DNA from: Cellulomonas sp.
Lineage (GTDB): Bacteria > Actinomycetota > Actinomycetes > Actinomycetales > Cellulomonadaceae
Length of the DNA stretch: 37,862 bases
Reading direction: 5' to 3'
Assembly (NCBI GenBank): GCA_022013895.1
Contig: JAKLPK010000026.1
Span: 1-37,862, forward strand
Shown here: in pieces, positions 14,028 through 24,885 of the stretch
How positions within the stretch are numbered: position 1 is the first letter of the stretch
How the letters are laid out: each line of letters opens with the position of its first letter
Program-made: the position numbers and the translations under genes
The notes under the pieces: generated by a model
Database searches by the model: none
What the model saw: only the letters and a program-made list of their open reading frames with translations
Told to the model about the DNA's origin: nothing

Positions 14028-14231
14028 TCAGAGCACCCGGCGGGCGCCGGTGCTGCCGGAGACCCTGCGACCGGCGGTGATGTACGGCTCGAGCGCGCGC
14101 AGGAACTTCTCCCGGTTCTCGTCGTTGAGGTCGACCTCGTAGGTCGTGTCCTGCCAGGCGAACCGGATCGTGCGGGCACCTTCGGTGCCGTCGAGGTCGT
14201 CGATGAGGGTCACGATCGTCTGCTGGGCCAT
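14028..14231 (-). CDS. Lsr2-like protein lacking the DNA-binding domain
   Basis: A 67-aa protein matching the N-terminal dimerisation/oligomerisation domain of Lsr2, the actinobacterial xenogeneic silencer: MAQQTIVTLIDDLDG, TIRFAWQDTTYEVDLN and the helix REKFLRALEPYI are characteristic. Normal Lsr2 is about 110 aa and ends in a small domain with an RGR AT-hook-like motif that reads AT-rich minor grooves; here the chain stops after GRRVSGSTGARRVL, so that domain is absent. The 27 bp to the convergent methyltransferase stop leave no room for it, and the methyltransferase region on this strand does not encode it in another frame, so this is not a recent frameshift. The ATG at 14231 is preferred over GTG 14237. 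It may modulate a full-length Lsr2 by heterodimerising (inference). Confidence 0.85.
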   Translation of the reverse strand: MAQQTIVTLIDDLDGTEGARTIRFAWQDTTYEVDLNDENREKFLRALEPYITAGRRVSGSTGARRVL

Positions 14232-14309
14232 GGACACATGGTTTCGTCCGAGCGGGTGGCTGTCGATCCGACGCCCCGTGGCCGGCGGATCGCGGATCGC
14301 GGACCGCGG

Positions 14310-15038
14310 TCAGGTGCCGCTCTTCGGGCGGTACAGGTCCGCCTCGAACCGGTAGGCGTCGCCGCGGTAGTGGTTGACCCCGATGAGGATGGGTGTCGAG
14401 TCCGCGGTGTAGGCGACCTCCGACCCCACGAGCACGGGGGAGCCGACGGGGACGGCGAGCAGTCGGGCCAGGCGTTCGTCGGCGGCGGCGGCCTGGACCG
14501 AGTAGGCGGAGCGATGGATGGCGACACCGCAGCGGTGCTCGAGCTCGTCGTACAGCGACCGGTCCGTCAGATCCGCCTCGGCGAGTCCGGGCGCCCGGTC
14601 GAGCACGATGGCGATGGTGTCGACGCAGACAGGAGTGCCGTCCATCCCGCGCAACCGGTCGAGCTGGATCACGGGTGCCGACGGTGCGATGCGCAGCTTG
14701 TCCGCCTCGTCGAGGGTCGAGGGGCGCACCTGCTGGACGAGCACGGCAGCGGTCGGGGTCAGGCCGCGGGCCCGCGCCATCTCGGTGAACGACTGCAGGG
14801 TGCTGGGCGGTTCGCCGATCACCTGTCGTGGGACGAACCAGCCACGCTGCGCCGAACGTTCGAGACGGCCCTCCTGCTCCAGCGTGGCGAGGGCGGCCCG
14901 CAGCGTCACGCGCGAGACGCCCAGGTGCTCGGACAGGTCGCGTTCACCCGGCAGCCGGGCACCGGGGGTGTGGACGCCGTGCTCGAGCTCCTGCACGAGA
15001 GCCTGGTAGGCGCTGTCGGTGACGGGTGATCTGCCCAT
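14310..15038 (-). CDS. GntR/HutC-family regulator with UTRA domain
   Basis: A 242-aa transcription factor: winged HTH at about residues 5-72 (PGERDLSEHLGVSRVTLRAAL, then a wing ending in GWFV), and a UTRA effector domain of about 90-238 (SAPVIQLDRLRGMDGTPVCVDTIAIVLDR, then LLAVPVGSPVLVGSEVAYTADSTPI). UTRA regulators usually bind a sugar phosphate or related small molecule. It is divergent from the sugar ABC operon, and ACTGG repeats lie between, so it very likely represses that operon and itself. TATACA (15053-15048) lies 9 nt before the ATG at 15038, suggesting a leaderless or near-leaderless transcript. DasR/NagR of the same family respond to amino-sugar phosphates, which fits the NagB-like gene downstream. 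Confidence 0.92.
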   Translation of the reverse strand: MGRSPVTDSAYQALVQELEHGVHTPGARLPGERDLSEHLGVSRVTLRAALATLEQEGRLERSAQRGWFVPRQVIGEPPSTLQSFTEMARARGLTPTAAVLVQQVRPSTLDEADKLRIAPSAPVIQLDRLRGMDGTPVCVDTIAIVLDRAPGLAEADLTDRSLYDELEHRCGVAIHRSAYSVQAAAADERLARLLAVPVGSPVLVGSEVAYTADSTPILIGVNHYRGDAYRFEADLYRPKSGT

Positions 15039-15045
15039 GGCCCGG

Positions 15046-15114
15046 ACTGTATACCAGTGAGCGACCTGTGGCGAGACTGGTCTGTTATCGGACCGTGACT
15101 GGACTAACTGGTCT
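15046..15114. promoter_or_regulatory. Operator region of the gntR / sugar-transport divergent promoters
   Basis: Three direct copies of ACTGGWCT lie at 15076-15083, 15098-15105 and 15107-15114, and an imperfect palindrome ACTGTATACCAGT lies at 15046-15058 over the gntR -10 box. ACTGGTCT is the half-site of the DasR/NagR-type operator (ACTGGTCTAGACCAGT). On the plus strand TAGGGT (15124-15129) could be the -10 of the transport operon, with TGGACT (15100-15105) at -35 spacing of 18, so the repeats overlap it. The arrangement differs from the usual single inverted repeat. Confidence 0.6.
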
Positions 15115-15210
15115 TGCGATCGCTAGGGTCATCGACATCGGAAGTCGGCCCCCCGCGTACCCCGAGGCGATGGCGCCTCGCGCACCGACCCGAAGACATG
15201 GAGCCCCACC

Positions 15211-16575
15211 ATGCACATCACCGACATGCGACGCACCGCGGTCGCGGGTGCGTTCGCGGTCCTCGCCCTCGCAGCCTCCGCGGCCTGCACCCCGGGCGGC
15301 AGCTCGGCCACCTCCACCACGGCGGCCTCGGACGTCTCGACCGACGTCGCCGCGGCCGGCGACGTGACCATCAAGATCTCCGACTTCTGGGGCTCGGCCG
15401 AGGGCGAGTGGATGGCCTCCCTCATCGCCGGCTTCGAGGAGAAGTACCCGAACGTCACGATCGATCGCACCCAGGAGGACTGGTCGCAGCTCCTGACCAC
15501 CCTCAACCTGCAGCTCACCGACGCCGACGGCCCCTGCATCGCCAGCGCAAACAACGGCTGGGGGTCCCTGGGCACCCTCGCCAAGGGCGGGCTCGTGCTC
15601 AACCTCGACGCCTACTCCGAGGCCTACGGCTGGGACAGCCTGATCCCCGAGACCATCGCCCGGCAGAACGAGTTCACCACGGACTTCACGACCATCGGTT
15701 CGGGCTCGCTGTTCGCCACCCCCGTCGCCCGCGTCTCGATGATCGGCATCTACTACAACGTGGACAAGCTCGAGGCCCTCGGCATCGACCCGCCCACCAC
15801 CCTCGACGAGCTCGAAGCGGCCGCCACCACGGCCGCGGCGGCCGGTGAGGTGCCGTTCGCCTACGGCAGCCAGGACGGCGGCACCGCCATCCTGCTCGGT
15901 CTGCAGGCGCTGTACGGCACCGCCGACTCGATCAACGACTACGTCTACGGCGACACGTCGGTGACCGCCACCGACACCGGGCTGCTCGACGCGGCGAACG
16001 AGCTCAAGACCTGGGCCGCCAACGGGTGGCTGACACCCGGCTTCGAAGGCATCGACTACAACACGGCGGTCGCCAACTTCGTCGGCGGCGAGGGCGTGTT
16101 CCGCTTCGAGTACACCGGGTCGCTCGGGCTGAGCTCCGACCAGCAGTCGCAGTTCGGCTACATCCAGCTGCCGCAGGCCGACGACGCCGCGACCACCGTC
16201 GGCGTCGGTGCAGCGCCCGGGGCGATGGTGATCTCGGCCGCGTGCCAGGAACCTGATGTCGCCGCCGCGTTCCTCGACTACCTCATGTCGGAGCAGGCCG
16301 CCCAGACCGCCGTCGACAACGGGATGATCCCGCTGCTGCACTCCGACGTCACCGTGCCGTCCACCATGGGCACCCTCAGCAGCGAGGCCGCCGGCGCAGC
16401 CGCCGTCGGCGAGAGTGACGGGTTCGTGCCGTACTTCGACTGGGCCTCCACCACCATGCTCGACACCCTGACCGCCCAGATGCAGCAGATGTACGCCGGG
16501 AAGACGACCCCGGAGCAGCTGGTCGAGGCAGTCGACGCCGACCGCACGGCCGGCCTCGCCGAGCTCGCGGGCTGA
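15211..16575 (+). CDS. Sugar ABC transporter substrate-binding lipoprotein
   Basis: A 454-aa family-1 extracellular solute-binding protein. The signal peptide ends in lipobox ASAAC, lipidating Cys26, followed by a Ser/Thr/Ala linker; the mature part begins near VTIKISDFWGSAEGEWM, the usual first strand of this class, then FEEKYPNVTI and, later, GIYYNVDKLEALGIDPPTTLDEL. These proteins capture oligosaccharides outside the membrane and deliver them to the two permeases that follow. Aromatic residues that would line the site (Trp59-like positions in DFWGS, NNGWGS, FRFEYTGS) fit a glycan ligand but do not identify it. First gene of the operon; a GGAGC-type site precedes the ATG. Confidence 0.93.
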   Translation: MHITDMRRTAVAGAFAVLALAASAACTPGGSSATSTTAASDVSTDVAAAGDVTIKISDFWGSAEGEWMASLIAGFEEKYPNVTIDRTQEDWSQLLTTLNLQLTDADGPCIASANNGWGSLGTLAKGGLVLNLDAYSEAYGWDSLIPETIARQNEFTTDFTTIGSGSLFATPVARVSMIGIYYNVDKLEALGIDPPTTLDELEAAATTAAAAGEVPFAYGSQDGGTAILLGLQALYGTADSINDYVYGDTSVTATDTGLLDAANELKTWAANGWLTPGFEGIDYNTAVANFVGGEGVFRFEYTGSLGLSSDQQSQFGYIQLPQADDAATTVGVGAAPGAMVISAACQEPDVAAAFLDYLMSEQAAQTAVDNGMIPLLHSDVTVPSTMGTLSSEAAGAAAVGESDGFVPYFDWASTTMLDTLTAQMQQMYAGKTTPEQLVEAVDADRTAGLAELAG

Positions 16576-16576
16576 C

Positions 16577-17524
16577 ATGCCCGGACCCGGCAACGACGTC
16601 GTGCGAGGCGCCCCCCTCGTCGATCGCACGACGCCCGCCCGCCGGGTGCGCGCCCGCTCCTTGCGAGCGCGCACCCGGTGGACCGGGCTGGCCTTCGCGG
16701 CACTCCCGCTGGCCCTCTACGGATTCGTGGTCATCTGGCCGCTGCTCCAGTCGGTGCAGTACTCGTTCTTCGACTGGGACGGTGTCTCGCAGGCCACCTG
16801 GGTGGGGCTGGACAACTACACCGGCTTCCTCACCGATCCTGTGCTTCGCGCCAGCCTCGGGCACGTGCTCGTGCTCATCCTGTTCTTCTCGTTGCTGCCG
16901 ATCGCGCTCGGGCTGGTCTCCGCCGCGATGCTCACCCGGGCACGTCAGCCGGGGATGGGCCTGTTCCGCTGGATCTTCTTCCTGCCGCAGGTGCTCACCT
17001 CGGTCGTCGTCGCGCTCATGTTCAAGCGGATCTACTCCGCCGAGGGCTCGCTCAACACCCTGCTCGAGGCCATCGGGCTGGGCGGGCTGGCCCGCGCCTG
17101 GCTCGCCGACTTCACCTGGGCGCTCCCGGCGCTCGGTCTGATCGGCACCTGGGTCACCTTCGGGTTCTGCATGGTGCTGTTCATCTCCGGCACCTCCTCG
17201 ATCCCCGACGAGCTCTACGAGGCGGCCCGGGTCGACGGCGCCGGGGCCGTCCGCGAGTTCTTCGCGGTCACGCTGCCCGGGCTGCGCGGGCAGATCGGCG
17301 TCGCACTCACCCTCACGATCACCGCCGCGCTGCGCACCTTCGACCTGGTCTGGGTGACCACCAGGGGCGGGCCGGGGACCTCGACCATGACCCCGGCCGT
17401 GCTGCTGTACCGCGCCGCGTTCCAGAACCCCGACGTCGGCAAGGCGGCCGCCATCGGCGTCGTCATGGCCGTCGTCTGCCTGCTCATCGCGCTGGCGATC
17501 ACCCGGATCACGGAGAAGGACTGA
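16577..17524 (+). CDS. Sugar ABC transporter permease (MalF type)
   Basis: A 315-aa inner-membrane permease with six predicted helices (first at about residues 37-60, LAFAALPLALYGFVVIWPLL). The cytoplasmic EAA loop that contacts the ATPase is EAARVDGAGAVREFFAVTLPGL. The long basic N-terminal segment (RRVRARSLRARTR) is typical of this type. It starts 1 nt after the binding-protein stop. No ATPase gene is in the operon; as in many actinobacteria, a shared MsiK-type ATPase encoded elsewhere probably powers it. Confidence 0.94.
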   Translation: MPGPGNDVVRGAPLVDRTTPARRVRARSLRARTRWTGLAFAALPLALYGFVVIWPLLQSVQYSFFDWDGVSQATWVGLDNYTGFLTDPVLRASLGHVLVLILFFSLLPIALGLVSAAMLTRARQPGMGLFRWIFFLPQVLTSVVVALMFKRIYSAEGSLNTLLEAIGLGGLARAWLADFTWALPALGLIGTWVTFGFCMVLFISGTSSIPDELYEAARVDGAGAVREFFAVTLPGLRGQIGVALTLTITAALRTFDLVWVTTRGGPGTSTMTPAVLLYRAAFQNPDVGKAAAIGVVMAVVCLLIALAITRITEKD

Positions 17525-18330
17525 TGCGCGCCTCCCGCACCGAGCAGGCTGCCAACTACGTCGTGCTCGTCGTCATCTCGCTCGTCGTCCTGTGGCCGGC
17601 CGTCACCTTCGTGCTCGCCGCGCTCAGCTCGGACCGGGCCGGCCGGCCCGGCGGCGTGCACTGGGACAACTTCGTCACAGCCTGGGAGCAGGCCGACTTC
17701 TCGCGGGCCATGACCGTCTCGATCACCATCGCGGTCGCGGCGTCGATCGGTCAGGTGCTGCTCGCGGTCCTGGGCGGCTACGGGTTCGGCGTGCTCGGCG
17801 TGGCCGGGCAGAAGGTGCTGTTCCCGGTCGTCCTGCTCGGGCTGATGATCTCGCTCGAGGCGATCATCGTGCCGCTGTACTACCAGTTCCGGTCGGCCGG
17901 CCTCACCAACTCCATCCCCGGGATCATCCTCATCCACCTCGGGACGGCGGTGCCGTTCGGCATCTTCTGGATGCGTGCCGCCTTCCGTGCGCTGCCCCGG
18001 TCACTGTTCGAGGCCGCCGAGATCGACGGTGCCGGCCCGATGCGGATCCTGCTGCGGCTGGGCCTGCCACTGGTCAGCCCCGCCGTGTGGACGCTGCTGC
18101 TGCTCAGCTTCATGTGGACCTGGAACGACTACTTCCTGTCCCTGGTCTTCCTGCACGGTGACAACGTCACCGCCACCGTCGCCCTCGGCGTCTTCCAGGG
18201 CCGGTACGTGACCCAGATCAACCTCATGGCCGCCGGCGGCCTCATCGTCGCGGCACCCGTCCTGATCCTCTACGTGGCGTTCCAGCGTCACTTCATCTCC
18301 GGGATGCTCGCCGGCGCCCTGCGCGAGTGA
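17524..18330 (+). CDS. Sugar ABC transporter permease (MalG type)
   Basis: A 268-aa permease with six predicted helices, beginning with NYVVLVVISLVVLWPAVTFV. The EAA motif reads EAAEIDGAGPMRILLRLGLPL, close to that of its partner. ATG 17524 overlaps the preceding TGA by one base (TGATG), which indicates translational coupling. The typical C-terminal RHFISGMLAGALRE is present. It forms the membrane pore together with the preceding permease; a 42-nt gap separates it from the NagB-like gene, so the whole set remains one operon. Confidence 0.94.
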   Translation: MRASRTEQAANYVVLVVISLVVLWPAVTFVLAALSSDRAGRPGGVHWDNFVTAWEQADFSRAMTVSITIAVAASIGQVLLAVLGGYGFGVLGVAGQKVLFPVVLLGLMISLEAIIVPLYYQFRSAGLTNSIPGIILIHLGTAVPFGIFWMRAAFRALPRSLFEAAEIDGAGPMRILLRLGLPLVSPAVWTLLLLSFMWTWNDYFLSLVFLHGDNVTATVALGVFQGRYVTQINLMAAGGLIVAAPVLILYVAFQRHFISGMLAGALRE

Positions 18331-18372
18331 CGGCGTCCGCCCCGCAACCCCCCCTTCGACCAGGAGCCCGCC

Positions 18373-19170
18373 GTGCCTGCCACCCCTACCGTCCTGCCCG
18401 ATGCCGCCGCTGTGGGTGTCGCGGTCGCCGAGATCGTCGCGGATGCGATCGCCGCGGCCCCCGGACGTCCGTTCCTGCTCGGCTGCCCCTCCGGCCGCAG
18501 TCTCGAGACCACGTACCGTGCGCTCGCCGCACAGGTGGCCGCCCGTCGGCTCGACCTCGCGGACCTGCTCGTCGTCCTCATGGACGAGTACCTCGTCGAG
18601 GGCTCCCACGGCCTCGAGCAGGTCGACCCCACGCTGTCCCACTCCTGCATCGGCTACGGCCGTCGCGAGATCATCGCCCCCCTGGCCGCCGCCGCCGCCC
18701 GTGCCGGGGTGCGTGGACCGGCCGGGCTGTGGGCCCCGGACCCGAGTGCTCCGGAGGCCTACGACGACCAGATCGAGGCGGCCGGCGGACTCGACCTGTT
18801 CCTGCTCGCCTCCGGGGCGAGCGACGGGCACATCGCGCTCAACCAGCCCGGGACGTCCCGGACCAGCCGCACCCACGTCGTGCGGCTCGGCGAGGCCACC
18901 CGGCGGGACAACATGGCCACCTTCCCCGATCTGACGACGCTGGACGCCGTCCCCACGCACGGGGTGACGGTCGGCATCTCGACCATCGTCGACCAGTCAC
19001 GTGCGGTGGTCATGGTGCTCACCGGAGCCGACAAGGCGACGGCCTGCTCCCGCATCGTCGCGGCGACCGGCTACGACCCGCAGTGGCCCTCGACGGCGTT
19101 CGTCGAGTGCACGAACGCCCAGCTCTTCGCAGACCGGGCCGCCGCCGGCGACCCCGACAAGGGAAGGTAG
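18373..19170 (+). CDS. NagB-like sugar-phosphate isomerase/deaminase, altered active site
   Basis: A 265-aa protein of the glucosamine-6-phosphate isomerase / 6-phosphogluconolactonase fold. It aligns with NagB at VLMDEYL (Asp71-Glu72, cf. Asp72), ASGASDGHIALNQPG (Asp151, His153) and the Arg-rich TSRTSRTHVVRLGEATRRDN phosphate region, plus GADKATA. Two core differences: the catalytic Glu148 of NagB is Gln158 here (NQPG instead of NEPG), and the phosphate loop GGT is GRS (PSGRS, residues 39-43). It therefore probably does not carry out normal GlcN6P deamination; it may act on another amino- or keto-sugar phosphate. The GTG start has CAGGAG about 6 nt upstream. Placed between the permeases and GH4 glycosidase, it should process the product of the imported sugar. 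Confidence 0.82.
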   Translation: MPATPTVLPDAAAVGVAVAEIVADAIAAAPGRPFLLGCPSGRSLETTYRALAAQVAARRLDLADLLVVLMDEYLVEGSHGLEQVDPTLSHSCIGYGRREIIAPLAAAAARAGVRGPAGLWAPDPSAPEAYDDQIEAAGGLDLFLLASGASDGHIALNQPGTSRTSRTHVVRLGEATRRDNMATFPDLTTLDAVPTHGVTVGISTIVDQSRAVVMVLTGADKATACSRIVAATGYDPQWPSTAFVECTNAQLFADRAAAGDPDKGR

Positions 19171-19173
19171 GAC

Positions 19174-20475
19174 ATGGCAGCGATCAAGCTCGTCTACATC
19201 GGGGGCGGATCGTCCCGGGCTGCGGGAACGATGGCCTCGTTCCTGTGGCACGGCGCGGAGTTCGCCGGCTCCCAGGTGGTGCTCGTCGACCAGGACGCGC
19301 AGCGGCTGGAGATCGTGCGCGAGATCGCGGTCCGGATCGCACGCGCGACCGGGGTCGACATCGACATCCAGGCCACGACCGATCGTCGGGCCGCGCTGAC
19401 CGATGCCGACGCCGTGCTCACCAGCTTCCGCCCCGGTGACTTCGCCGCCCGGGTGCTCGACGAGCGCATCCCGATCAAGCACGGCGTGATCGGCCAGGAG
19501 ACCCAGGGTCCGGGCGGGTTCATGATGGCGCTGCGCTCGATCCACGTGATGGCCGACATCGTGTCGGACCTGGAGGCGGTGGCGCCCGGGGCCGTCATCT
19601 TCAACTACACGAACCCGGTGAACATCGTCTCCCAGGCGCTGACCCGGTTCACCGACGTACCGATCTACTCCATGTGCGAGGGGCCGATCTTCTTCCCGCA
19701 CTCCACGTTGCGGGCCGCCGGTCTGGACCCCGAACGGGCCACCGTGACGATGGCCGGCGTCAACCACAACTGCTGGTCCTTCGAGCACACCTACGACGGC
19801 GCCGATCTCATGCCGCTGCTCGACGCCGCGTGGGAGGCACGCAAGGACGACCCGACGCTCGGCGTCTTCGAACGCCGGATGCTGCAGCTGGCGGTCACCA
19901 TGCGCTCGGTCCCGGCCGACTACTTCCAGTACTACTACTACGGACCCGAGATCCTGCGTGAGCAGCAGGCCGCACCGCGCACCCGTGCCGAGGACATCCT
20001 GGCGGCGTTGCCCGGGTACTGGGAGCACTACGTCGAGCAGTCGAAGGTCGACTCCCCGGACCTGGACCCGGCCCGCTCCCGCGGTGGCATCCACGAGCTC
20101 GAGCTGGCGATCGACGTGATGAGCGCCTACTACAACAACACCGGTGCGAGGCTGCCGGTCAACCTGCCGAACCTCGGCGGTGCGCTGCCCGGGTTCGATG
20201 AGGACGTGGTGGTCGAGATGTGGTGCACGGTCGACGCCCGGGGAGTGCACCCCGAGCCCCAGCGTGCCCTGCCGCACGCCGTGCGTGGCATCACCCAGGC
20301 GCTCGCGGAGTACCAGTACGTGGCCGCCGAGGCCGCCTGGTCCGGGACCCGCCGCGACGCCGTCCGGGCCCTGGCCGCGAACCCGCTGGTCCCGAGCCTG
20401 ACGGTCGCCGAGGAGCTCTACACCGAGCTGGCCGCCGCACACGCCCGCTACCTGCCCGAGCGGCTGCTGCGGTGA
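19174..20475 (+). CDS. GH4 family NAD-dependent glycosidase
   Basis: A 433-aa glycoside hydrolase family 4 enzyme; GH4 uses NAD+ and Mn2+ and cleaves by transient oxidation at C3 and elimination. The N-terminal Rossmann motif is IGGGSSRAAG (residues 9-18), with Asp40 in LVDQD to bind NAD. NYTNPV (144-149) is the family motif, and the metal ligands are probably Cys168 (MCEGP) and His198 (GVNHNCW). A QYYYYGPE stretch (near 250) holds the tyrosine expected as catalytic base. Relative to 6-phospho-beta-glucosidases the CEGP and NHNCW contexts are divergent, so substrate (phosphorylated or not) is open. It starts 3 nt after the NagB-like stop and ends overlapping the kinase start. No signal peptide: it acts in the cytoplasm. 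Confidence 0.87.
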   Translation: MAAIKLVYIGGGSSRAAGTMASFLWHGAEFAGSQVVLVDQDAQRLEIVREIAVRIARATGVDIDIQATTDRRAALTDADAVLTSFRPGDFAARVLDERIPIKHGVIGQETQGPGGFMMALRSIHVMADIVSDLEAVAPGAVIFNYTNPVNIVSQALTRFTDVPIYSMCEGPIFFPHSTLRAAGLDPERATVTMAGVNHNCWSFEHTYDGADLMPLLDAAWEARKDDPTLGVFERRMLQLAVTMRSVPADYFQYYYYGPEILREQQAAPRTRAEDILAALPGYWEHYVEQSKVDSPDLDPARSRGGIHELELAIDVMSAYYNNTGARLPVNLPNLGGALPGFDEDVVVEMWCTVDARGVHPEPQRALPHAVRGITQALAEYQYVAAEAAWSGTRRDAVRALAANPLVPSLTVAEELYTELAAAHARYLPERLLR

Positions 20476-21476
20476 GCACCGCCCATCTGGCCGTCGACGG
20501 CGGCAACTCCAAGACCGTGGCCGTCGTCGTCGACCAGGACGGGCTCGTGCTCGGGCGCGGCCGTGGCGGCTGCGGTGACATCTACGGCGCGGCCAGTCCG
20601 CAGGCAGCCGTCGAGGCTGTCACCGCCGCCGTCACGCAGGCGCTCACCGGTGCCGGCCTCGAGCCCCCTGAGGTCCACAACGCCGTGCTCCGGCTGGCCG
20701 GTGCCGACTGGCCGGAGGACGCGCGCTACTGGACGGACCAACTCGCCGTCCTCGTCCCCGGTCTGCGCGGCGTCGAGGTCGGCAACGATGCGCTCGCGTC
20801 ATTGCGGCTCGTCGATCGCGCCGGGGTGGGGCTGTGCGTCACGGTCGGCACCGGACCGGCGATCGGAGCGCGGTCCGCCGACGGCCGCGAGGCCTGGACC
20901 GGCCTGTGGGTGTTCGACGACCTCGGTGGCGGTGGGTTGGGTCGGGCGTCGTTCGAGGCGGTGATGCGCGCCTGGATGGGGACGGGTCCGCGCACCCTGC
21001 TGACGCCCGCGCTGCTGACCATGTACGACGCACCGGATGAACCCACCCTGCATCACGCGTTCACGCGACGGTTCGACGCGCGTCCCGACACCGACCGCTG
21101 GCGCGCCGCGCGGCTGGTGCTCCAGATCGCCGAGCAGGGGGACCCGGTCGCCCGGGCGATCGTCGAACGGCAGGCTGCGGCGCTGGTCGGCTACGCGGGC
21201 TGGGTCGCCCGGGAGGTGGGTGCGGATCTGGCTGACGGCACCCTGCCGGTGCTGCTCAACGGCTCCGTCGTGACGTCCGAGCATCCGGCGATGCGGCAGG
21301 CCCTGCTCGCGGTCTTCGCCGAGCGGTACCCGGCGGCGGTCGTCTCGGTCTCCCGGGGGACCCCGCTCGCGGGTGCAGTGCTCGACGCGCTCGCGGCCGG
21401 TGGCGTCGTGCTGGACGACCAGCTTGTCGAACGGGTCGTCGGAACCGCCCACCCCGCCGACTTCCTCATCACCTGA
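20472..21476 (+). CDS. BadF/NAGK-family sugar kinase
   Basis: A 334-aa ASKHA-fold ATPase of the BadF/BadG/BcrA/BcrD group, which includes N-acetylglucosamine kinase-like enzymes. The phosphate-1 loop LAVDGGNSKTVAVVVDQDG is at residues 5-23, the second nucleotide loop is TVGTGPAIGARSADG (about 118-132), and VFDDLGGGGLGR (about 151-162) resembles the adenosine/sugar site. No cysteine cluster of the Fe-S activator type is present, so it is a kinase and not a dehydratase activator. The GTG start overlaps the GH4 stop (GTGA). It probably phosphorylates the monosaccharide released in this pathway, possibly an amino sugar given the NagB-like neighbour. Confidence 0.85.
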   Translation: MSTAHLAVDGGNSKTVAVVVDQDGLVLGRGRGGCGDIYGAASPQAAVEAVTAAVTQALTGAGLEPPEVHNAVLRLAGADWPEDARYWTDQLAVLVPGLRGVEVGNDALASLRLVDRAGVGLCVTVGTGPAIGARSADGREAWTGLWVFDDLGGGGLGRASFEAVMRAWMGTGPRTLLTPALLTMYDAPDEPTLHHAFTRRFDARPDTDRWRAARLVLQIAEQGDPVARAIVERQAAALVGYAGWVAREVGADLADGTLPVLLNGSVVTSEHPAMRQALLAVFAERYPAAVVSVSRGTPLAGAVLDALAAGGVVLDDQLVERVVGTAHPADFLIT

Positions 21477-21504
21477 TCTACCCGCCGTGGGACCAAGGAG
21501 TGCT

Positions 21505-23685
21505 GTGAGCCTCGTCGATCTGCTGCCCGCTCTGACCCTCGCCGAGAAGGCGTCGTTGCTGTCCGGCGACGGCGACTGGTGGACCCAGGCCGTCCCGCGG
21601 CTCGGCCTGCCCGCGGTCGAGCTGGGCGACGGTCCGCACGGCCTGCGCACCGAGACCGGGGTGGACATGGTGTGGGTGCCGTCCACCTGCTTCCCGACGC
21701 TGTCGGCGCTCGCCGCGACCTGGGACCGTGACCTGGTCCGCGAGGTCGGCGCCGCGCTCGGGGCCGAGGCCGCCGCGATGGGCGTGCACCTGGTGCTCGG
21801 TCCGGGCGTGAACATCAAGCGGACGCCCCTGTGCGGCCGCAACTTCGAGTACCCGTCGGAGGACCCGTGGCTGACGGGCGACGTCGCGGTGGCCTACGTC
21901 ACCGGGGTGCAGAGCGCGGGGGTGGGTGCCTGCGTCAAGCACTTCGCTGCGAACAACCAGGAGACCGAGCGCACCCGCATCTCGGTGGAGGTCGATGAGC
22001 GGACGTTGCGCGAGCTCTACCTGGTCGCGTTCGAGCGGGTCGTGCACGACGCGGAACCGTGGGCGCTCATGTGCTCCTACAACCGCATCGGCGGCACGTA
22101 CGCCTCCGCGCACCGCTGGCTGCTCACCACCGTGCTCCGCGAGGAGTGGGGGTACGAGGGGGTCGTGGTCTCCGACTGGGACGCGGTGCATGACAAGGTG
22201 GCCACGGTCCGCGCCGGGCTCGACCTGGAGATGCCAGGGACGCAGGGACGCACCGATGCGCAGGTGGTGGCGGCCGTGCAGGCCGGCACGCTCGACGAGG
22301 CCGACGTCGACCGCGCCGCCCGTCGCGTGCTGCACCTGGTCGACCGTGCTCGGCCCGGGGCCGGCGTGGTGCGCGCCTCGGGGCACCGGCCCGGGGACGA
22401 GCTCACCGCCGACCAGCTCACGATGCTCGACGCGGACGCCCACCACGAGCTGGCACGACGGGCCGCGACCGCCTCGCTCACGCTGGTGCGCAACAGCGGT
22501 GTGCTGCCGCTCGACCCAGACGGTTCGGACCGGGTGGCGCTGATCGGCGGGTACGCCCGGCTGCCGCGGATCCAGGGCGGTGGTTCGGCCGGGGTGCGTC
22601 CCACTCGGGTCGACACGCCGCTGGAGGCGATGCGCGCCGCACTGGGCGACCGGCTCGACTTCGCCGAGGGGTACCCGGTCGGTGAGACCGACTACTACCA
22701 GGAGCAGGCGCCCGCCGCCTTGCCGTCGGCGGGCCAGCTGGCCGACGAGGCCGTCGCACTGGCCGCCCGCGCGGACGTCACCGTCGCCGTGGTCGGGCTG
22801 CCGTTGGCCGCCGACAGCGAGGCCGCCGACCGCAGCGACCTCGCACTGCCGGCCGACCAGGTGGCGCTGCTGACGCGACTGGCCGCGCTGGACGTGCCGC
22901 TGGTGGTGGTGGTGCAGGCCGGATCGGCCGTCACGATGGACCCGTGGCATGACGGAGCCGCTGCGGTGCTGCTCACCGGTCTGGCGGGCCAGGGGGTCGG
23001 CGGCGCGCTCGCCGACGTCCTGCTCGGTGCGGCCGATCCTGGTGGTCGACTCACCGAGACGTACCCGCTGGCGCTGGATGACACCCCGGGCGTGGTCGGC
23101 TTCCCGGGGGAGCGCGGCCACGTGGTCTACGGCGAGGGCGTCTTCGTGGGCTACCGCTGGTACGACGTGCTCGACCGAGCAGTCCGGTACCCGTTCGGGT
23201 ACGGCCTGTCCTACACGAGCTTCGCCTACGACGATCTGCAGCTCGACGTGCTCGATGCGGCGGCCGGGCGTGTGCGATGCGCGGTCACGGTGACCAACAT
23301 CGGGACGCGGCGAGGTTCGGACGTCGTCCAGGTGTACGTCGGTGACCCGTCGTCGGCCGTGCACCGGCCGGTCCGCGAGCTCAAGGGATACGCCAAGGTG
23401 GCGCTCGAGCCCGGCGGGAGCACGCGGGTGGCCGTCGACCTCACCGGCCGTGACTTCAGCTATGTCGACGCGGTCTGCGGCCGGTGGCGGCGCGAGGGCG
23501 GGCAGTTCGTGGTGTCGGTCGGCTCCTCGTCACGGGACCTGCGGGCGTCGGCCGTCATCGAGCTCCCGGACGACCCCGACCCCACGCTGCCGAGGCTGGT
23601 CCGCGACGATGCGGTGCCCACCGAGGCGGTGCCGTGGGCGGTCGGGACGGACGGTCCCGTGCGGGCCGGGGCTCCTGCGACGTGA
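21505..23685 (+). CDS. GH3 beta-glycosidase, cytoplasmic
   Basis: A 726-aa family 3 glycoside hydrolase with the three-domain beta-glucosidase layout: TIM barrel (about 1-310), alpha/beta sandwich (about 340-560) and a C-terminal fibronectin type III-like domain (about 585-665, RCAVTVTNIGTRRGSDVVQVYV). The nucleophile is Asp224 in VVVSDWDAVHD; VKHFAANNQE and GPGVNIKRTPLCGRNFEY are the usual substrate-pocket segments. Signal peptide is absent. The GTG at 21505 is chosen for AAGGAG 5 nt upstream and the domain boundary; the longer frame from 21373 would overlap the kinase. As last gene of the operon it probably hydrolyses the imported beta-linked oligosaccharide or aryl glycoside. Confidence 0.93.
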   Translation: MSLVDLLPALTLAEKASLLSGDGDWWTQAVPRLGLPAVELGDGPHGLRTETGVDMVWVPSTCFPTLSALAATWDRDLVREVGAALGAEAAAMGVHLVLGPGVNIKRTPLCGRNFEYPSEDPWLTGDVAVAYVTGVQSAGVGACVKHFAANNQETERTRISVEVDERTLRELYLVAFERVVHDAEPWALMCSYNRIGGTYASAHRWLLTTVLREEWGYEGVVVSDWDAVHDKVATVRAGLDLEMPGTQGRTDAQVVAAVQAGTLDEADVDRAARRVLHLVDRARPGAGVVRASGHRPGDELTADQLTMLDADAHHELARRAATASLTLVRNSGVLPLDPDGSDRVALIGGYARLPRIQGGGSAGVRPTRVDTPLEAMRAALGDRLDFAEGYPVGETDYYQEQAPAALPSAGQLADEAVALAARADVTVAVVGLPLAADSEAADRSDLALPADQVALLTRLAALDVPLVVVVQAGSAVTMDPWHDGAAAVLLTGLAGQGVGGALADVLLGAADPGGRLTETYPLALDDTPGVVGFPGERGHVVYGEGVFVGYRWYDVLDRAVRYPFGYGLSYTSFAYDDLQLDVLDAAAGRVRCAVTVTNIGTRRGSDVVQVYVGDPSSAVHRPVRELKGYAKVALEPGGSTRVAVDLTGRDFSYVDAVCGRWRREGGQFVVSVGSSSRDLRASAVIELPDDPDPTLPRLVRDDAVPTEAVPWAVGTDGPVRAGAPAT

Positions 23686-23718
23686 GCGGATCGGTGCCGG
23701 TCGTCAGCTGCGGCGGCC

Positions 23719-23724
23719 TACGCT
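23719..23724 (+). promoter_or_regulatory. -10 box of the aminotransferase gene
   Basis: TACGCT lies 6 nt before the GTG at 23731, the leaderless spacing seen repeatedly in this window. It shows that the aminotransferase is a separate unit and not the end of the sugar operon. Confidence 0.5.
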
Positions 23725-23730
23725 CCCACC

Positions 23731-24885
23731 GTGGTCCTTGCCCGTCGTGCCGGCGCCGATGAACGCCCGCACCGCATCGCCCGGCTGCGGGCGGACCGGC
23801 TGGCCGCCGGGCTGCCGCTGCTCGACCTGTCCGACTCCAACCCGACCCGGTACGGGCTCGGCGCTCCCGAGGCCCTGTCCGCGGTCGCCGCCGCGACTGT
23901 TCGCGCGAGCACCTACGACCCCGACCCGCGCGGTCCACTGCCCTCCCGGGAGGCCCTCGCGGCCCTCCGCGGTGGCCGGCCCGACGACTACTGGCTGACC
24001 GCCTCGACCTCCGAGGCGTACTCCTGGCTGCTCACCCTGCTTGCCGACCCCGGTGACCTCATCGCGGTGCCCGCGCCCGGCTACCCGCTGGTGGAACCGT
24101 TGGCCAGGTTCGCCGGGGTCGGGACAGTCAGCTATCCCGTGCACTACCTGCACCCGCACGGCTGGTGGATCGACCTCGAGCGGCTGGACGCCCTGGTGCA
24201 GGACCCCCGGGTGCGCGCCGTCGTGGTGGTGAGTCCGGGCAACCCGACGGGTGCCTACCTGCAGGCCGCCGAGCAGGACAGGGTCGTGGAGGCCTGCGCC
24301 CGGACCGGCACTGCGCTCATCGTGGACGAGGTGTTCGGGCCCTACGCCCTGGACGGGCGGCCGAGCTCGGCGGCCGCGACGTCCGGCTGCCTCACCTTCA
24401 CCCTCGACGGGCTGTCGAAGCTGCTGTGCGCACCGCAGCTCAAGCTCGGTTGGCTGCGGGTGTCAGGGCCCGCGGCCCAGCTCGCGGAGGTGGGCCGTGC
24501 GCTGGACCAGGTGGCCGATGCGTTCCTGTCGGTCGGGGCACCCGTCGCCCTCGCGCTGCCTGAGCTGCTCGCGCTGGCACCGGGGTCGGTGGCGCGCACC
24601 CGGGAGCGGTTGAGGGTCAACCTCGCCACGGCCCGTCGGGTGCTCGACGAGCAGTACCGGGTGCGCAGGTGCGATGGGGGCTGGACCTTCCTGGTCGACG
24701 TGCCGCGCTACCTGGCCGATGACGACCTGGCCGCCGCCCTGCTCGACGCCGGGCTCTGGGCGCACCCCGGCTGGCTCTACGACCTGGACTCCCCGGGCGC
24801 TCTGGCACTGTCCCTGCTCCCGGAACCGGCGACGTTCGAGACCGGCTGCATGCGGCTGCGGGCGGCGGTCGACGCCCTCGCCTGA
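23731..24885 (+). CDS. PLP-dependent class I/II aminotransferase
   Basis: A 384-aa fold-type I aminotransferase. The PLP lysine is Lys230 in LDGLSKLLCAPQLKLGWL, with Arg/Lys phosphate contacts expected just after. Other class I features are DSNPTRYGLG, YDPDPRGPLPSREALA (cf. Y.p..G....R..), SPGNPTGAYL and VDEVFGPYAL (Asp contacting the PLP nitrogen). The family includes aspartate, aromatic and MalY-like beta-lyase members; the substrate is not inferable. It stands alone between the sugar operon and a flavoprotein, with a likely leaderless start; the flavoprotein has its own box, so they may be separately transcribed. Confidence 0.9.
   Translation: MVLARRAGADERPHRIARLRADRLAAGLPLLDLSDSNPTRYGLGAPEALSAVAAATVRASTYDPDPRGPLPSREALAALRGGRPDDYWLTASTSEAYSWLLTLLADPGDLIAVPAPGYPLVEPLARFAGVGTVSYPVHYLHPHGWWIDLERLDALVQDPRVRAVVVVSPGNPTGAYLQAAEQDRVVEACARTGTALIVDEVFGPYALDGRPSSAAATSGCLTFTLDGLSKLLCAPQLKLGWLRVSGPAAQLAEVGRALDQVADAFLSVGAPVALALPELLALAPGSVARTRERLRVNLATARRVLDEQYRVRRCDGGWTFLVDVPRYLADDDLAAALLDAGLWAHPGWLYDLDSPGALALSLLPEPATFETGCMRLRAAVDALA

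Follow-up and report, generated by a model that had tools for sequence, protein, structure and literature searches.

Which sugar is taken up and degraded by the operon at positions 14,310 to 23,685 of contig JAKLPK010000026.1 of Cellulomonas sp. (assembly GCA_022013895.1)? The whole stretch of 37,862 nucleotides (nt) was analyzed and is called the window here; the genome that carries it is about 90% complete. The operon region consists of a divergent GntR/UTRA gene and seven further genes, from a sugar-binding protein through a GH3 beta-glycosidase. Pfam domains confirmed every one of these eight genes, so the set described by an earlier sequence-only reading is real. That reading, which had seen an unusual enzyme set and one pathway, is partly supported by our analysis. 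The best reading of the operon is a version of the chb-type route from a GH4 glycosidase to a NagB-family enzyme that works with an ABC importer and a kinase, and not simply a chitobiose or cellobiose operon. We see about an even chance that its genes break down an imported glycoside whose sugar can be phosphorylated at O6 and is most likely an amino sugar without an acetyl group.

Distribution and conserved core

We searched 221 genomes of the family of the window and 396 genomes of its order for the NagB-like protein (NagBL) and the GH4 enzyme, and 394 genomes of its class and 346 of its phylum for the GH4 only. In the family, NagBL (E ≤1e-60) was present in 8 genomes and GH4 (E ≤1e-80) in 7, all within the 8. 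The Fisher p value of this co-occurrence, 1.7e-12, is overstated since all seven GH4 carriers belong to one genus. Ten genomes of the order carried NagBL (E ≤1e-45), and the five with GH4 (E ≤1e-100) were all among them. At an E value of 1e-100 or better, the class sample added G431 and the phylum sample G1025, G1037, and G1126. Among the relatives with a species name are Cellulomonas citrea and Quadrisphaera granulorum. The C. citrea operon (L039/L090) matches that of the window at least up to the GH4 gene, at which its contig stops.

The GH4 enzymes with a CEGP motif at the metal-binding Cys form a set of 18, of which 11 are from Actinomycetes, 3 from other Actinomycetota, and 4 from Deinococcus plasmids. 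Their loci are the window, G083, G028, G084, G079, G078, G040, G777, G684 (Quadrisphaera), G670, G431, G1126, G1037, G1025, and the four Deinococcus plasmids. The motif of G1126 was seen in the sequence, where the regular expression had caught an earlier Cys. The GH4 enzymes of G461, G573, and G596 in the class sample have CD and not CE after the Cys, belong to another clade, and are outside the 18.

The order of binding protein, two permeases, NagB-like protein, GH4, and BadF kinase recurs in six relatives (G084, G079, G040, G777, G684, and G670) and is therefore not a chance arrangement. The BadF kinase gene adjoins the CEGP GH4 gene in all 17 testable loci; the eighteenth, G028, ends inside the GH4 gene. 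Three CEGP GH4 loci were fetched after this had been predicted, and the kinase was present in all three. The third position of the core is more variable. NagBL is adjacent in 10 loci, with an eleventh (G078) split over two contig ends, and a NagB that keeps Glu148 fills the position in five (the four Deinococcus loci and G1025). In G1126 and G1037 it is taken by a divergently transcribed SIS-domain gene, scoring 28.1 and 26.7 bits against a Pfam SIS cut-off of 25. The best models of these SIS genes, far below cut-off, are GlmS for both and also NagB-II/GlmD for G1126. The core is thus a CEGP GH4, a BadF kinase, and a gene of sugar-phosphate deaminase/isomerase type. The conserved neighborhood, searched in this way, bears out the proposal of one pathway, as both the gene order and the core recur across relatives.

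Other genes were seen beside some of these modules. A Gfo/Idh/MocA-like gene stands beside that of G1126 and of G1037, and G1126 adds a cupin and a ROK-like kinase. A MOSC-domain gene adjoins the BadF kinase in G431 (L069, 7115–7861) and in all four Deinococcus loci (L049–L052).

GH4 of the CEGP clade

The GH4 gene lies at 19174–20475 on the plus strand, and its product belongs to the GH4 superfamily (Pfam Glyco_hydro_4, 156.1 bits; 4C, 122.9 bits). Its metal-binding C168 and H198 align with C172 and H203 of ChbF. The best PDB sequence matches are the 6-phospho-beta-glucosidases 1s6y (236 bits) and 5c3m (235 bits), from which the window enzyme differs in the residue beside the metal Cys. The score against PRK15076 is 195.7 of 486 bits; GH4, NagBL, and kinase all score far under the curated cut-off of the NCBIfam model that matches each best. 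In the tree, eight actinobacterial and four Deinococcus sequences form the CEGP clade (support 100/100, branch 0.93), outside three CN-type 6-phospho-beta-glucosidases that include E. coli ChbF. Characterized references in this tree are few (E. coli ChbF and MelA), and 1s6y and 5c3m are not among its sequences.

In the passages cited here from PMC13197890, the minus-1 subsite of a Salmonella ChbF model comprises C172, N150, H203, Y258, T113, E112, R96, R282, and N173. We mapped these residues through E. coli ChbF, which is identical to Salmonella ChbF at those numbers. The alignment shows the window GH4 to be identical at eight of the nine, R96 and R282 included, and because of this it should cut 6-phosphoglycosides. 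The ninth, N173 beside the metal Cys, is replaced by Glu169, and the same Glu is found in six actinobacterial and all four Deinococcus CEGP sequences. With Glu169 in place of Asn and a separate 100/100 clade, the enzyme stands outside the ChbF/6-phospho-beta-glucosidase subgroup, and we infer from its residues a predicted 6-phosphoglycosidase with altered specificity. The E. coli enzyme MelA, which acts on unphosphorylated sugar, has Thr in the place of R96.

The passages of PMC13197890 also state that ChbF cleaves GlcN6P-GlcNAc (glucosamine 6-phosphate linked to N-acetylglucosamine) and not the acetylated form, so that the non-reducing GlcNAc must be deacetylated. This requirement gives precedent for a GH4 acting on a 2-amino sugar. 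It also qualifies the claim of the sequence-only reading that the operon does not match the usual chitobiose routes. The claim was too strong in that the logic of GH4 to NagB is known from ChbF; it holds in that ABC import plus a kinase replace the phosphotransferase system (PTS) and the enzymes are divergent. We also considered the acidic residue after the Cys as a possible guide to alpha or beta preference (CN beta, CD alpha); a literature search for such motifs found nothing, and nothing is claimed from it.

The genome of the window has a second GH4, with a CDTP motif, followed by a NagB with Glu148 on contig C98 (L068, 7588–9743). ABC importer genes lie near this pair and, as seen by eye, a DeoR-like gene lies upstream. 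The same pair, with an annotated DeoR, is present on a Curtobacterium plasmid (L093). Compared with the closest relative (L038), the window GH4 protein is 98.6% identical and NagBL just 89%; in DNA, the GH4 gene (95.2% identity) and the end of permease B (94.2%) are closer than NagBL, kinase, and GH3 (87.6–89.1%).

The NagB-like protein

NagBL (18373–19170, plus strand; Pfam Glucosamine_iso) has a GCPSGRS motif and a Gln in place of Glu148 of E. coli NagB. Its 19 sequences form a single clade in the tree (100/100, branch 1.24), placed on the NagB side and split from four 6-phosphogluconolactonases (6PGLs) at 100/100; the characterized references there are few, namely NagB of E. coli and the putative AgaI. 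Neither NagBL nor the CEGP GH4 was thus found inside a characterized clade, within the limits of these few references, and the separation of each at 100/100 upholds the description of an unusual enzyme set.

The predicted structure (pLDDT 90.3, pTM 0.88) is nearest to GlcN6P deaminases (2bkv, TM 0.80/0.88), and 6PGLs are farther (TM by query 0.62–0.69). NagBL shares with NagB (2bkv, 1dea) the fold, Asp72, Asp141-Gly-His143, and Lys208, and the aligned sequences retain Asp72, Asp141, His143, and Lys208. It differs from NagB in having Gln, Pro, or Ala for Glu148, Arg at position 43, no Arg172, and a clade of its own. NagBL scored 110.7 of the 236.9 bits of the nagB equivalog (TIGR00502), under which the NagBs of Deinococcus QL22 (131.1) and G1025 (200.4) also fall, and 30.6 of 124.45 bits for 6PGL (TIGR01198). 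The tree, the cut-offs, and residue 148 led us to reject NagBL as an ordinary NagB or as a 6PGL, the latter being the name given to NagBL in a Shinella plasmid record. Besides NagBL, the genome of the window carries two NagB genes, and the second GH4 is paired with one of these.

Residue 148 was scanned in 27 NagBLs, a set that excludes the plasmid matches H2, H3, H5, H6, H8, and H10 and the weak locus L048. All eight Gln and the single Ala occur together with a CEGP GH4, as do two Pro (G040 and G670).

The kinase, the importer, and accessory glycosidases

The kinase gene (20472–21476, plus strand) encodes a BadF/NagK-type sugar kinase of the ASKHA group. It scores 37.5 bits for BcrAD_BadFG against a cut-off of 31.5 and aligns in the PDB with NAGK and hexokinase (2e2n, 2ch5). 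Its best NCBIfam model, the N-acetylglucosamine kinase equivalog NF046058, gives 57.3 of 370 bits.

The importer genes precede NagBL on the plus strand: a CUT1-like sugar ABC binding protein, by eye a probable lipoprotein (15211–16575, Pfam SBP_bac_1), and permeases A (16577–17524) and B (17524–18330), both with BPD_transp_1. PDB matches of the binding protein are weak, and those ranked 5 and 6 are chitin-oligosaccharide binding proteins. The importer varies between loci: most actinobacterial loci have a CUT1-like one, and Deinococcus KNUC1210 and QL22 have one of Dpp type. No importer of this kind adjoins the core in G431; a family-5 binding protein gene, whose product is 30% identical to the Deinococcus one, lies about 0.9 kb past its kinase.

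The last gene (21505–23685, plus strand, from a GTG start chosen from the sequence) encodes a beta-glucosidase-like GH3 (Pfam Glyco_hydro_3, 3_C, and Fn3-like) in which no signal peptide was seen by eye. We regard the GH3 as accessory: this position holds a GH3 in only 5 of the 17 testable CEGP GH4 loci, and other relatives have other glycoside hydrolase families. As a defining member of the operon or a key to its substrate it was rejected, since 12 of the 17 loci are without it at this position, though G777 and QL22 have a different GH3 nearby. In G777 that GH3 is on the opposite strand and a GH30 lies downstream; in QL22 a shorter GH3 lies about 8 kb upstream. The sole NCBIfam match of a GH35-like accessory gene in G670 is exo-beta-D-glucosaminidase (91.4 of 1500 bits).

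The junctions of the seven genes are +1, −1, +42, +3, −4, and +28 nt. The overlaps of 1–4 nt noted earlier therefore hold at two of six junctions, and the other four are gaps. The genes and their order were given correctly, except that the GntR gene is transcribed divergently. No sigma-70-like promoter or terminator was detected across 14150–23950.

The GntR regulator and its putative operators

The regulator (14310–15038, minus strand; Pfam GntR and UTRA) is a GntR/HutC-type repressor whose closest solved structures in a PDB search are NagR (YvoA) and DasR. The effector-pocket contacts were taken from the relevant passages of PMC4333415 and placed by hand on the PDB-match alignment, and 10 GntRs were compared. 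The operon GntR shares the phosphate-binding residues and differs at the sugar face. R133, R135, S165, and Y167 are present in 10 of 10, residue 90 is Thr or Ser, E145 is replaced by Asp, and Y228 is kept.

Four half-sites resembling ACTGGTCT lie within 64 nt (15051–15114) of the intergenic promoter region and are putative operators. The window holds 28 such matches with at most one mismatch in all, a total that is unexceptional (reached by 14 of 100 shuffles). By eye, several relatives also have TGGT/ACCA half-sites in the corresponding intergenic region. TGGTCTAGACCA, presumably the consensus of the full DasR-type palindrome, has 17 matches in the window with up to three mismatches (shuffle mean 9.25; 17 reached by 2 of 100). 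None of the 17 lies in this intergenic region, and the full palindrome was rejected as the operator; only the half-site cluster stands.

Alternative neighborhoods of NagBL

Sixteen of 27 NagBL loci are without a CEGP GH4. Five of these (the Shinella, Ensifer, and Sinorhizobium plasmids, G014, and G772) combine NagBL with genes for a Gfo/Idh/MocA oxidoreductase and a TIM-barrel protein resembling xylose isomerase. A ROK kinase is present in four of the five, and the locus of G772 ends at a short contig. G014, from the family of the window, has an importer and a GntR of the window type with NagBL, but Gfo/Idh/MocA, TIM-barrel, and ROK genes replace the CEGP GH4 and BadF. Directly past these genes, the opposite strand carries a separate pair of CDTP-type GH4 and NagB. 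In G388, NagBL is accompanied by a GH4 of the CN type, a gene that matches BadF weakly, and a GntR of 50% identity. A ROK gene stands beside NagBL in Alsobacter and in a Gemmatimonadales bin, and a Gfo/Idh/MocA gene is nearby in Gemmatirosa. When partners were predicted for five new NagBL loci of this non-CEGP kind, the prediction held in two (G772 and G388).

It is plausible that the oxidoreductase and TIM-barrel pair is a two-enzyme substitute for GH4, and we infer that both neighborhoods lead, by alternative routes, to one phosphosugar. G014, with the alternative enzymes, shows the same changed GntR pocket, which supports one effector common to both neighborhoods, a phosphosugar that would not be read as GlcN6P.

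In G615, G673, and G695 (L119, L120, and L121; one genus), NagBL lies beside an L-lysine 6-transaminase gene, which is over the NCBIfam cut-off in G695 and G615; the G673 copy is 93% identical. No partner sugar genes were found within about 9 kb of NagBL in these three, and a different role for this NagBL branch is possible. The record of another locus (L045, NZ_VCCH02000030.1) is titled Mycobacterium sp. KBS0706 and shares about 84–93% DNA identity over thousands of bases with three Inquilinus limosus records; the Mycobacterium label looks wrong.

Proposed pathway and substrate

In the pathway that we propose, the binding protein and two permeases would import an oligosaccharide or glycoside, which a cytoplasmic exo-glycosidase, where present (GH3 here), may trim. 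The BadF-type kinase would then phosphorylate O6. It probably acts before cleavage because the GH4 keeps the phosphoglycoside subsite. GH4 enzymes use NAD+ and a metal in an oxidation-elimination mechanism, and the CEGP GH4 would by this chemistry release a sugar 6-phosphate and an aglycone. Judging by its fold and by the replacements in its slot, NagBL could turn the sugar 6-phosphate into a ketose 6-phosphate, with deamination and isomerization if an amino sugar is released. The divergent GntR would repress through the ACTGGTCT-type half-sites, and the pathway phosphosugar, bound in the pocket predicted from sequence, may release it.

An amino-sugar substrate is favored because NagB or SIS genes can fill the third slot and because the regulator resembles NagR and DasR. 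The NagB and SIS families are unrelated, yet amino-sugar-6-phosphate enzymes are the best models of both. Also in favor are the closeness of the NagBL structure model to GlcN6P deaminases and the exo-beta-D-glucosaminidase match of the accessory gene in G670. Several observations weigh against this reading; an amino sugar is disfavored in particular by the missing Glu148 and by the changes in the effector pocket. The catalytic set of NagB, whose substrate is GlcN6P, consists of Asp72, His143, and Glu148. NagBL keeps the first two, and Glu148 is absent in all 27 proteins scanned (Gln in 8, Ala in 1, Pro in 18). Arg172 is also missing, as is an Arg in that column of the Deinococcus NagBs. Because Glu148 and Arg172 are lost, NagBL may not deaminate GlcN6P. 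The sugar face of the regulator carries I209G, R211E, E222L/V, and A224G in 10 of 10 GntRs, and these changes argue that the effector may not simply be GlcN6P; PhnF shares the R and E of NagR at 211 and 222, so these two are not GlcN6P-specific. On the GH4 side, R282 is Arg in MelA too, so only R96 separates ChbF from MelA. The SIS genes of G1126 and G1037 match weakly and could be part of a neighboring divergent operon, and no partner genes were recognized around NagBL in 7 of the 16 loci without CEGP GH4 (four Inquilinus-type loci, G615, G673, and G695). A Pfam search of the eight operon genes found nothing like ChbG or NagA. The accessory GH30 and GH3 of G777 resemble beta-1,6-glucan enzymes, which would fit a neutral glucoside.

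These points leave room for other explanations. With a probability that falls somewhat short of even, the pathway is one not previously described, for a glycoside whose 6-phosphosugar differs from GlcN6P. The CEGP GH4 would then have a new specificity, and NagBL would have a new reaction or substrate because of the lost Glu148 and the new arginine in its phosphate loop; elsewhere the split oxidoreductase/TIM-barrel pair plus ROK would replace GH4 and BadF and feed the same phosphosugar. Less likely, though deserving attention, is a neutral sugar, for which NagBL would have lost deamination and would isomerize, from aldose to ketose, a hexose 6-phosphate not handled by phosphoglucose isomerase. 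The universal loss of Glu148, the altered GntR face, and the beta-1,6-glucan-type enzymes beside the core of G777 fit this view, whereas the slot is filled in Deinococcus and G1025 by a NagB retaining Glu148, and the SIS genes have GlmS (G1126, G1037) and NagB-II (G1126) as best models, all weak. We also find it rather unlikely that the kinase follows cleavage, so that GH4 would cut an unphosphorylated glycoside and BadF would phosphorylate the free sugar for NagBL. A ROK kinase does accompany the presumably non-phospho oxidoreductase/TIM-barrel pair in Shinella-type loci, and the best model of the kinase is a free-sugar enzyme. However, the GH4 shares with ChbF both R96 and R282, and MelA has Thr at the former.

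It is improbable that NagBL is a lactonase that opens, as 6PGL does, a lactone formed by oxidation of the released sugar phosphate or its 3-keto derivative. Like the two 6PGL motifs compared, NagBL has an uncharged residue at 148, the Shinella record bears the name, and Gfo/Idh/MocA oxidoreductases adjoin NagBL in the alternative loci. Against this, the tree places NagBL with NagB, the nearest folds are NagBs, its nagB score far exceeds that for 6PGL, and Pfam finds no lactone-forming dehydrogenase among the eight genes. The chance is equally small that the operon is an ordinary ChbF/NagB one for cellobiose or chitobiose whose sequences have diverged. This reading would agree with the 6-phospho-beta-glucosidases as closest PDB matches of the GH4, the ChbF precedent, and the beta-glucosidase-like GH3 neighbor. 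It would disagree with CEGP in place of CN, with the separate positions of GH4 and NagBL, and with the two further NagB genes of the same genome, one with a second GH4. Mycothiol- or bacillithiol-type alpha-glucosaminides and aminoglycosides were considered as substrates; there was no evidence either way, and they are not claimed.

Relation to known systems

The E. coli chb system (ChbF and ChbG, with NagB downstream) resembles the operon in that a GH4 acts on a 6-phosphoglycoside and the sugar 6-phosphate passes to a NagB-family enzyme. The operon differs in having an ABC importer and BadF kinase in place of the PTS, CEGP for CN in the GH4, a NagBL without Glu148, and no ChbG-type gene among the eight. 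A deglycosylation route of Agrobacterium uses an oxidoreductase, the sugar-phosphate-isomerase-like eliminase AtOGE, and a hydratase, and is mechanistically analogous to the one-site GH4, according to the passages cited from PMC10628242. Those passages contain no NagB-like step, and BglK there is an expressed Klebsiella kinase. The Gfo/Idh/MocA and TIM-barrel genes beside NagBL in G014, G772, and the three rhizobial plasmids, loci that have no CEGP GH4, resemble this route by description. Our literature searches, with subscription journals mostly outside their scope, found no recognized description of a GH4/NagB-like/BadF operon or of the NagBL branch.

If the proposed pathway is true, the operon would represent a portable sugar-catabolic cassette common to Actinomycetota and Deinococcus, with a GH4 subfamily whose specificity may be its own and a substrate that may be new. 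Database names for NagBL such as 6-phosphogluconolactonase would probably be wrong. As GH4 and an oxidoreductase/TIM-barrel pair replace each other around one downstream enzyme, a shared phosphosugar is predicted, and two chemically equivalent solutions would then feed this one phosphosugar around NagBL.

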